Source: a virus. Taken from it: a stretch of DNA of 28,138 bases. Below the pieces are notes generated by a model, which was not told where the DNA came from, searched no databases, and saw only the letters and a list, made by a program, of their open reading frames with translations. Each line of letters begins with the position of its first letter. Positions within the stretch are counted from its first letter, which is position 1. Positions 22,892-26,157 of the stretch are shown in pieces. The stretch is taken from positions 1-28,138 of IMG/VR virus record IMGVR_UViG_3300032093_000657. The stretch is one strand, 5' to 3'. A program made the position numbers and the translations under genes.

Positions 22892-23293
22892 ATGTTCTAT
22901 GTACAAACTAATACAGCCGCGCAGACAGCTTACCTCTCTCTAAAAGAGGGGGAGCTGATCTTGGCTGCTACTTATACTCACTACCTAGTGAAGCTGGTAC
23001 ATGAGAACACTGGTAAGGAGTATTTTTTCATTCCAACAGTACTAAGTGAGAACAACAGAGTAACTCACTTGCAATTTGACACTAATGTCAATGACCCTTT
23101 GAATGGGGGTATCTTGCTTGTAGATCCAGGCAGATATTGTTACAATATTTATGCACAAAACAGTGGGAGTAATTTAGACCCATCATTATCTTTGGGACTG
23201 GTAGAGGAAGGTTTCATGGAAGCTACAACGGGAGTGACCTACTATCAGACTCCATCATTTACTACACCATCAGACTATATATACAATGGATGA
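22892..23293 (+). CDS. Conserved virion-region protein (133 aa)
   Basis: A beta-rich protein (LVKLVHENTGKEYFFIPTVL, VTHLQFDTNVNDPLNGGILL, VDPGRYCYNIYAQNSGSNLDP) that recurs in structural modules of Bacteroidetes phages with no named function. It could be a decoration, neck or tail protein. It overlaps the portal gene by 8 bases. Confidence 0.65.
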   Translation: MFYVQTNTAAQTAYLSLKEGELILAATYTHYLVKLVHENTGKEYFFIPTVLSENNRVTHLQFDTNVNDPLNGGILLVDPGRYCYNIYAQNSGSNLDPSLSLGLVEEGFMEATTGVTYYQTPSFTTPSDYIYNG

Positions 23294-25580
23294 TAAATTG
23301 ACAAATATAGCTTTAGCTAAGTACATCAAAGTAGAGGAAGTAGAGAAAGAGACTACAAAGGGGTGGGTTGAATGGGGAGACGCTAACTCTATGCCAAATT
23401 ACCTTATAGATTTGTATCAATCTTCTCCGGTACATGGCAGCTTAGTCAATAGTATCTCATTCATGATAGCTGGTAAAGGTTTCAAGAGTGAGAATCCAGC
23501 TAGCCAGGTGAACATAGCAAAGCTTGAGCTAGATAATATATTGGGCTCATCTGCATTAGACTTAAAGTTACAAGGTGGAGTCTATTGGGAACTCATCTAC
23601 AGCATGGATCACACTCGCATTGTGCAAGTAAATCACTTGCCTTTCGAGAATGTGAGACTAGCTATATCAGATGAGGAGGATCATGTATGTGGAGTGTGGT
23701 ATAGTAGAGACTGGCAAGACATCAGAAAGCAAAAGAATAAGCCTGAATATGTACCTCTTTTCAATCCCGAAGATCAATCACCAAGACAAGTGCTTTTCTT
23801 CCATCTGCATAGTGTGGGATCATTGTACTATCCTCGCCCCGATTATATCAGTAGTAAAGATTGGATTGAACTGACTAGACATATCAGTGAGTACCATGTG
23901 AACAATATACTCAATGGTTTCTTTCCATCCTTTCACATTAACTTTCCTAACGGTGAGCCATCACCCGAAGCTCAGAGATTGATCTCTAGAGAGATTGAGA
24001 GAAATCTATCCGGCACTCAGAACGCTGGTAAGTTCCTCATTACATTCACTAAGAGTAAAGATGAGGCACCAGTAATACAGCCATTTCCAGTCACTGATGC
24101 TGACAAACAATATGAGTACCTATCCAAAGAGGCTACCTCTCAAATCATTGTGGCTCACAGAGTGACATCACCCCTACTAATGGGAGTGAGAACAGATGGC
24201 AATGGACTAGGCTCTAACACTGACGAGATTAAGGCTGCTCTATATGTATTCACTAAGCAAGTCATTGAGCCATTTCAGCGCATCATCACAGATGCAGTAG
24301 AGCAGATACTAGCATTCAATGGAGTACCATCACAAGTGACCATTGAAAAGAATGACATCATTGAGATAGCACAAGAGCAAGGTGCTCTACCATCTGATAC
24401 AACTGCTGCTGCACCAATAGATGTAGCAAGCCAAGCATTGAACGGAGCGCAGATAGCATCTCTACTTGAGATCATTGTACAGACTACAGCAAATGTATTG
24501 ACAGTTCCATCAGCAAAAGCTATCACTACTGCATCATTCCCAATGCTAAGCCAAGAGCAGATCAATAGCATCTTTGATAACCTATCATCTACACCTATCA
24601 ATCCAGCAACTGTACTCAGTGCTTTAAAAAAAAAAGTACTAGCTGCGGAGGATGAGGAGAACTCTTTTGCACCCACTAAAGAAATGGCAGCAGAGGCTGA
24701 GCTAGGTCTAAAGTGGAGAGAGGAGTACAAGAGAGGAGGAACAGAGGTAGGAGTCGCAAGAGCTAGAGACATCTCTAACATGCGTAACTTATCACTAGAT
24801 ACTGTCACTAGAATGAATAGCTACTTTGCTAGACATGAAGTGGACAAGGAAGCTCTAGGGTGGAATCAGGGAGAGGAAGGCTTTCCAACAGCAGGCAGAA
24901 TAGCATGGCAGTTATGGGGTGGAGATCCAGGTAAAGACTGGGCAGCTAGAATACTAGAAAGAGCAAATGCGCAATCATGTGCAGGTGGATGGAATGACTT
25001 CTCAGATGAGCAAGGTGCAGCATTCATTGAGCAACTAAAAGCAAAAGCTGAGTACATCAATGACGAATGGGAGCTCCTTAGTGATGAGAAAGTCACTGAT
25101 GCACTAGCGGAGGAGGACTTTGTACTACAGTGTCAGTCACTTGATAGCTATGCTAAGGGTGATGAGTCAGAGAGAAGTCAGTGGGGTGATGCTGGACTAT
25201 ACAAGCTACGCTATGCATACAGTCAAAATCTATCAGCTAATAGCAGAGACTTCTGTATAGAGATGGTAGCAATGAGCAAAGCTGGTGCAGTGTTCAAATA
25301 TGAGGACATTCAACAGATGAGTGATGATGGAGTGAATGGTGAGTTCGCTCCTGCAGGGCAGTCATCCTACGATATCTTCAGGTGGGTCGGGGGAGCCTTC
25401 TGTCATCATCACTGGAGAAGGCAGATATACTTTAGAAAACAAGAGAAAGGAAAGTTCCTACCTAATAAGGGGCTTGACAATGATAAGAGAGTGGGGAATG
25501 TACCTTATGTCAAACCGAAAGGTATTGAGGGCATTGCACCAATTAACAGACCAGGCAGAGGATCACTAAAATACGGATAA
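23286..25580 (+). CDS. Portal protein fused to DUF5824-like and MuF-like domains
   Basis: A 764-residue protein. Residues 1-445 are portal-like: WVEWGDANSMPNYLIDLYQSSPVHGSLV at the start, VYWELIYSMDHTRIVQVNHLPFENVRLA, and EKNDIIEIAQEQ later. A linker has an A10 run (codons 447-450). Residues about 460-570 match a phage head-associated domain (FAPTKEMAAEAELGLKWREE, GGTEVGVARARDI, MNSYFARHEVDK, IAWQLWGGD), of the DUF5824 type. Residues about 640-740 resemble a MuF-like head domain (NSRDFCIEMV, FKYEDIQQMS, GGAFCHHHWRRQI). Normal portals have about 450-500 residues, so the rest is a fusion. The portal is the DNA gateway at one capsid vertex. Confidence 0.85.
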   Translation: MDDKLTNIALAKYIKVEEVEKETTKGWVEWGDANSMPNYLIDLYQSSPVHGSLVNSISFMIAGKGFKSENPASQVNIAKLELDNILGSSALDLKLQGGVYWELIYSMDHTRIVQVNHLPFENVRLAISDEEDHVCGVWYSRDWQDIRKQKNKPEYVPLFNPEDQSPRQVLFFHLHSVGSLYYPRPDYISSKDWIELTRHISEYHVNNILNGFFPSFHINFPNGEPSPEAQRLISREIERNLSGTQNAGKFLITFTKSKDEAPVIQPFPVTDADKQYEYLSKEATSQIIVAHRVTSPLLMGVRTDGNGLGSNTDEIKAALYVFTKQVIEPFQRIITDAVEQILAFNGVPSQVTIEKNDIIEIAQEQGALPSDTTAAAPIDVASQALNGAQIASLLEIIVQTTANVLTVPSAKAITTASFPMLSQEQINSIFDNLSSTPINPATVLSALKKKVLAAEDEENSFAPTKEMAAEAELGLKWREEYKRGGTEVGVARARDISNMRNLSLDTVTRMNSYFARHEVDKEALGWNQGEEGFPTAGRIAWQLWGGDPGKDWAARILERANAQSCAGGWNDFSDEQGAAFIEQLKAKAEYINDEWELLSDEKVTDALAEEDFVLQCQSLDSYAKGDESERSQWGDAGLYKLRYAYSQNLSANSRDFCIEMVAMSKAGAVFKYEDIQQMSDDGVNGEFAPAGQSSYDIFRWVGGAFCHHHWRRQIYFRKQEKGKFLPNKGLDNDKRVGNVPYVKPKGIEGIAPINRPGRGSLKYG
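24626..24635 (+). other. A10 tract at the portal/fusion boundary, possible slippage site
   Basis: Zero-frame codons are GCT TTA AAA AAA AAA GTA, at residues 446-451. A -1 slip reaches TGA at 24653-24655 after six codons; a +1 slip reaches TAG at 24640-24642 after one. Either yields a portal of about 451-456 residues, the usual portal length. A plain Lys3 run is the null explanation. Confidence 0.45.
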
Positions 25581-25584
25581 TAAA

Positions 25585-26157
25585 ATGGCAGTACTACCGG
25601 AAATACTTTTAATTGATGAGACATTCATCAAGAAATATACAGCAATAAATGACAGTGTGGACACTGCCATCATCAGACCATGCATATATCTTGCACAAGA
25701 CAAGTATCTAGTGAACTATCTAGGTACTGATTTGACTAATAAGCTCAAGGCAGATGCACAAGCAGGCACCCTTGCAGGGGACTATGAGACACTTATAGAC
25801 CAATATGTGAGAAAGATGCTAGTGTGGTGGACCATGATTGAGCTATATCCCTTGCTAGTGTACAAGCATGACAATGGAAATATAGTCAGCAGAGACAGTG
25901 AGAATGCTACAAGCATCAGTGAGAGTGAACTGCACAAGCTAATGGATGCAGCAAAAGATAATGCGAGATATTACACACAGAGAATGCTAGACTACATCAG
26001 ACAGAATGTATCTTTATTCCCTGAATATAGCAGCAATACATCACCCGATCAGTCACCCTATACTCAACTGTATACACAGACTGGATTGATGTACTCACAA
26101 GGTCTAAAACAATCTACACTACGATGGTCAATAAAAGACTTCCTACCAGTCAAGTAG
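25585..26157 (+). CDS. Head-tail adaptor-like protein (DUF6712 type)
   Basis: A 190-residue helical protein with the pattern LIDETFIKKYTAINDSVDTAIIRPCIYLAQDKYLVNYLGTDLTNKL, RKMLVWWTMIELYPLLVYKHDNGNI and DYIRQNVSLFPEY. It matches a conserved Bacteroidetes phage family directly downstream of portal genes, of the DUF6712 type, and its all-helical layout fits head-tail adaptors. Adaptors bind beneath the portal. The last 34 bases overlap a 41-residue gene in another frame. Confidence 0.72.
   Translation: MAVLPEILLIDETFIKKYTAINDSVDTAIIRPCIYLAQDKYLVNYLGTDLTNKLKADAQAGTLAGDYETLIDQYVRKMLVWWTMIELYPLLVYKHDNGNIVSRDSENATSISESELHKLMDAAKDNARYYTQRMLDYIRQNVSLFPEYSSNTSPDQSPYTQLYTQTGLMYSQGLKQSTLRWSIKDFLPVK

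Follow-up and report, generated by a model that had tools for sequence, protein, structure and literature searches.

A conserved A tract behind the portal domain of a phage portal-fusion family is a probable programmed slippage site

Thermus thermophilus dnaX gives rise to tau and gamma at a ratio of 1:1 by transcriptional slippage on nine A/T, stops in both other frames making any slipped mRNA yield the short product, and bacterial RNA polymerase was reported to slip efficiently at run lengths of at least nine (PMC5009743). Runs of 9–11 A/T in tssM1, tssM3, mxiA, mxiE, spa13 and spa33 slip at 15–55%, and in Yersinia pseudotuberculosis tssM3 slippage of 15–25% leads to the shorter form with the longer one encoded in the unslipped frame (PMC4256274). 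In reporters, poly(A) slippage of the E. coli RNA polymerase was lower than poly(T) slippage, which counts against the proposal made here (PMC6260861). In the phage SPP1, a few gp7 molecules enter the procapsid by way of the portal protein gp6, and infectivity is increased by gp7 (PMC6316719). Searches of the open-licence literature yielded no account of a portal gene that undergoes slippage, nor of a phage head gene for which homopolymer slippage is used family-wide. Here, we report a tract of ten A residues in a viral portal gene, its conservation among relatives and the products that it may give.

The window, i.e., the whole stretch of DNA that was analysed, is the IMG/VR record IMGVR_UViG_3300032093_000657 with a length of 28,138 bases. 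On its plus strand it carries an open reading frame of 764 aa (23286..25580), the long product read without slippage, which is an HK97/PBSX-type portal by profile and fold matches over the portal core. The PHROG portal families match with E 3e-67 in the profile search, TIGR01540 portal_PBSX of NCBIfam (E 1e-10) and Pfam PF04860 match under their curated cut-offs, and the predicted fold resembles the solved portals of GTA, HK97 and phage 812 (Foldseek E about 1e-8 to 1e-6). These profile matches span aa 8–361, and the likeness to known portals stops near residue 361. The portal domain together with the linker upstream of the tract comprises about 446 codons (23286..24625, plus strand), as delimited by portal profiles and pLDDT, and is followed directly by the A10 candidate slippage tract (24626..24635, plus strand), read in frame as GCT TTA AAA AAA AAA GTA with TTA as codon 447 and the AAA codons as 448–450. 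This is the longest A run of the window, the runner-up being an A8. Since the structure model has a pLDDT below 50 at residues 436–458, the tract is predicted to lie mid-way in a flexible linker, with the portal upstream and about 300 extra residues downstream. A reading from sequence alone had noted both the uninterrupted A10 at these codons (within 24618–24656) and a portal about 300 residues too long, and both observations are borne out. It had also pointed out that slips in either direction soon reach a stop, as is indeed the case: a transcript which has lost one A (A9, +1 frame) runs into TAG at 24640..24642, and one which has gained an A (A11, or a -1 slip of the ribosome) into TGA at 24653..24655, both on the plus strand. 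The computed products are 451 aa (50.3 kDa) after +1 and 456 aa (50.6 kDa) after -1 slippage, compared to 764 aa (85.4 kDa) without slippage.

The residues following the tract include a helical phage-head accessory domain of the phrog_2859 type at aa 462–564 (24669..24977, plus strand; PHROG 2859, E 3e-25; confident helical model), which is optional in relatives and for which no clear match among solved structures was found. This domain recurs widely as an addition to phage head proteins, in portals, prohead proteases and XkdF-like proteins as well as in capsid-gene fusions, and the phages concerned are very diverse. The C-terminal conserved domain shows a Cys/His pattern (25035..25580, plus strand) and corresponds to the C-terminal part of the portal family phrog_33693, which is present in 34/34 relatives; a fold comparison of this part returned no PDB match with a Z of 5 or more. 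The sequence-only reading had assigned DUF5824-like and MuF-like domains to this region, but neither name is supported by a profile: aa 447–764 gave no Pfam match, phrog_2859 matching there instead, and among the 34 relatives no Pfam profile matched the C-terminal part, MuF included with E values up to 1 allowed. The portal gene is followed by a gene of the DUF6712 family (25585..26157, plus strand; Pfam PF20459, E 1.5e-16). As a separate observation, G+C-rich lineages carry, a few kb upstream of the portal, a gene of 191–192 aa (VQAISLVEFPAIE) with an A9 run 3–4 codons past its start, in the context ATG GAC / ATG GAA AC[CG] AAA AAA AAA GTT (L043:526-540, L055:1743-1757, L056:1737-1754, L058:594-611 and L060:1732-1749); its product looks like a relative of XkdF and prohead proteases.

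Relatives were collected in several scans: the protein itself retrieved 67 related contigs, an aligned set of diverse family members retrieved over 500 candidates, from which 80 were retained, and two further scans extended the collection to the divergent end of the family. All of them are metagenomic contigs except the phages P12024S/L and two bacterial genome loci. Of 141 distinct related genes, 136 have a run of A9–A12 at the junction, a count that leaves aside L171–L240, which mostly form a run-less sister group called "marine" here as a shorthand judged from its kin only. The conservation of run length in relatives, proposed as a check on the sequence-only reading, is thereby seen: 84 of the 136 genes have A10, 44 have A11, five have A9 and three have A12, all runs in the conserved clade having at least nine residues and none seven or eight. 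Even a lineage that shares only about 33% amino-acid identity with the window (L124) has kept the run. It is absent from L096, L121, L130, L162 and L164 among the 141 genes and missing in nearly all of the marine group and in the cultured P12024S. Within 559 kb of related contigs, 61 A9–A11 runs lie inside the portal gene, and outside it there are one other A10 on the plus strand and twelve A9s. The junction is spelled GAA AAA AAA AAG (48 times), CAA AAA AAA AAA (34), CAA AAA AAA AAG (10), GAA AAA AAA AAA (9), TTA AAA AAA AAA (7), GTA AAA AAA AAA (7), GGA AAA AAA AAA (5) or ATA AAA AAA AAA (4), with others including GAA AAA AAA AAC. Apart from the lysines the junction residues are variable, the downstream domains are interchangeable between distinct relatives, and optional blocks come and go on either side of the run. 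On this comparison the run is conserved at the nucleotide level, across codon phases and flanking residues. Of the cultured phages, Nonlabens P12024S/L are the only ones with a match over most of the portal and C-terminal region; other isolates match mostly in the phrog_2859 domain (proteases or capsid fusions) or weakly in the portal only, and of the two distant relatives at bacterial genome loci neither has the run.

Stops in the other frames are close to the run. Behind it, the first off-frame stop is met after 1.4 codons on average, whereas other positions of these genes give an expectation of 5.5 to 6.2 codons, with 5.5 for the 18 lineages thinned at 70% identity, and at least one off-frame stop occurs within one codon in 74% of cases vs 29% expected. 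Each frame singly is nearer to a stop than expected after thinning at 90, 80 and 70% identity, the last leaving 18 lineages (p 0.0034 or less throughout). An immediate +1 stop is present in some lineages and an immediate -1 stop in others.

Taken together, the A tract is probably a programmed slippage site from which both a portal of about 50 kDa and a fusion of 85 kDa are made, and among the enzymes that might slip RNA polymerase is more likely than the ribosome. RNA polymerase would add or drop A residues in a fraction of the transcripts. Transcripts with an unchanged run, or with one altered by three residues, would be translated into the 764-aa portal fused to head-accessory domains, and slipped transcripts would meet a nearby stop in either other frame and yield a complete portal of about 451–456 aa. 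The preference for RNA polymerase rests on runs of at least nine, on the free codon phase and third lysine codon, on the enrichment of stops in both off-frames and on the lack of a consistent stimulator. Alternatively, the short portal might come from -1 frameshifting of the ribosome at A_AAA_AAG or A_AAA_AAA with RNA polymerase not slipping at all, which we regard as unlikely. In favour of ribosomal frameshifting, such a -1 slippery heptamer stands in frame in nearly every run, -1 stops follow within 12 codons in 39/39 clusters, and the sequence downstream folds slightly more than expected (mean z about -0.6). However, seven A residues would do for the ribosome and yet the conserved clade has no run of seven or eight, codon phase and the choice of AAG or AAA at the third lysine vary freely, and near stops are enriched also in the +1 frame, where -1 shifting has no need of them. 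Moreover, a Shine-Dalgarno-like word upstream of the run is not consistent (9/39), no conserved stem-loop is seen and the downstream modules swap. Weak extra folding is found on both sides of the run, so that a ribosomal stimulator may exist. A consistent upstream hairpin seemed promising in single sequences, but its excess is lost on thinning (p 0.003 at 90%, 0.2 at 80% and 0.8 at 70%; 22 nt), and the downstream folding signal is weak and unspecific. Polymerase and ribosomal slippage can also act together.

Slippage, by whichever enzyme, has to be weighed against the null model of an A-rich Lys-Lys-Lys linker which results from codon usage, with the 85 kDa fusion as sole product. The linker KKK is encoded nearly always and many lineages are fairly A-rich in their codon usage, as this model expects. 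However, the run is far longer than codon choice accounts for: given the own codon usage and residues of each gene, the combined chance of such long runs in 39 clusters is about 1e-31, the clusters having been formed at 90% identity and treated as independent, which they are not fully. Elsewhere in these genes, KKK is written with AAA throughout at only 2/35 sites and is interrupted at 33/35, a conserved KKKNKP motif is all-AAA in 0/8, and in one relative (L134) a KKKK just past the run is spelled AAG AAG AAG AAA. Lineages with more than 50% G+C that prefer AAG retain the run, e.g., L044, whose portal ORF has three AAA and 24 AAG codons. The A preceding the lysines stays through changes of its residue (TTA/GTA/ATA/GGA), and wherever the run is gone KKK is gone as well (L130 QKEK, L162 SK, L164 KK). 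A Lys-Lys-Lys at the junction interrupted by AAG, which the sequence-only reading had named as a refutation of slippage, was not seen among the relatives found, and slippage is not refuted on this count. The enrichment of off-frame stops also stands against a mere linker. Judged from these codons, the run is retained beyond the needs of the protein and not merely as lysine codons. The null model is thus very unlikely, and the slippage proposed in the sequence-only reading is supported by the nucleotide-level conservation and the off-frame stops.

With a single exception, the genes that carry the run encode the long product in the DNA frame. This holds also for the recombinant L018, in which the upstream and downstream parts are of different phase and an A11 keeps the frame, with L034 being similar. 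Recombinants of this kind, and the different modules that flank the run on either side in L013 and L007, would suit the idea that the run is a recombination joint for the exchange of head-domain modules and is kept for that purpose. This is highly improbable, as ten A residues are too short for efficient homologous recombination, a joint needs neither near off-frame stops nor a length of at least nine, and modules also come and go where the run is absent, namely in the marine group. Phase variation at the DNA level, in which replication slippage would give subpopulations with or without the fusion, is hardly credible, since it draws on one contig with an out-of-frame A9 (L012), which ends just past the run and may be misassembled, and predicts frequent out-of-frame genomes where the long frame is intact in all other run-bearing genes. 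As to this contig itself (L012 / L156, IMGVR_UViG_3300002845_000006), it is a near-identical relative with A9 instead of A10 and a broken long frame; it ends a few bases past the run, and the A9 is possibly a true variant or an assembly fault.

The maintenance of both the run and the long frame suggests that selection preserves tract and fusion alike and that both products of the proposed slippage matter. On the tree of the portal core the run requires at least five changes. At 85% identity it is present in 32/65 lineages and fills the clade of the window (27/28), two smaller groups (L108/L089 and L124/L163) have it as well, and one lineage counted with the run in the other large group has an A9 in a lysine-rich stretch, which may be due to chance. 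Run-less relatives are mostly fusions, e.g., Nonlabens phage P12024S, and in L233 (2075-3310) and L240 the portal ends naturally at 412 aa without C-terminal extension, an adaptor-like gene following directly. The gene at this place looks similar to the DUF6712 gene of the window. By sequence comparison, the family has three states, which are portal alone, fusion alone and fusion with the candidate slippage tract, the last of which would make both forms. As fusions or single portals persist without the run, the device is dispensable for the fold. The logic of a normal-length portal made next to a portal fusion, put forward in the sequence-only reading, fits these data including the short portals of L233 and L240, and the part that is not supported is that the fusion would be the minority: it need not be, since in every contig except one the long product is read without slippage, and it need not be rare given the slippage rates known for runs of 9–11 A/T.

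Portal rings are usually pictured as twelve copies of one protein, and to our knowledge how phages load a few copies of internal head proteins is understood in few systems only. If both forms are made, they could co-assemble in the 12-subunit ring with the extra domains on some subunits only, which by analogy to SPP1 gp6/gp7 would equip the ring with a restricted number of internal-head domains inside the capsid. That this large phage clade builds such mixed portal rings, in which transcriptional slippage at A10–A11 sets the count of domain-bearing subunits among the twelve, is a proposal for which we see the chances as evenly balanced. If true, the ratio of plain to cargo-bearing portal subunits would be genetically encoded, and a phage head gene would make use of homopolymer slippage family-wide. 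The slippage reading predicts specific product masses and mRNA indels.

Among the known systems, Thermus dnaX shares with the family of the window a long product in one ORF, a homopolymer run, near stops in both off-frames behind it and a short product from slipped mRNAs, the latter being inferred here. It differs in being a cellular polymerase gene with demonstrated slippage, whereas the tract described here has A9–A12, lies in a phage portal gene and its slippage is deduced. The tssM3 gene and Citrobacter rodentium tssM1 are likewise poly-A runs with two length variants, which are predicted in our case; these are isolated cases in secretion-system genes, whereas the tract of the window is a conserved feature of a family. 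The lambda G/GT tail chaperones, which use -1 ribosomal frameshifts, and SPP1 gp17.1/17.1* set the ratio of a short to a C-terminally extended form of a phage structural protein (PMC6316719), as is predicted for the portal. In those cases, however, the ribosome shifts into another DNA frame that encodes the extension, whereas in the portal gene the extended form is the unslipped one. Finally, the proposed ring resembles SPP1 gp6/gp7 in that the portal would carry a few copies of a head protein or domain inside; gp6 and gp7 are products of separate genes in non-covalent contact, whereas the domain of the window, whose likeness to gp7/MuF is without profile support, is covalently fused to its portal.
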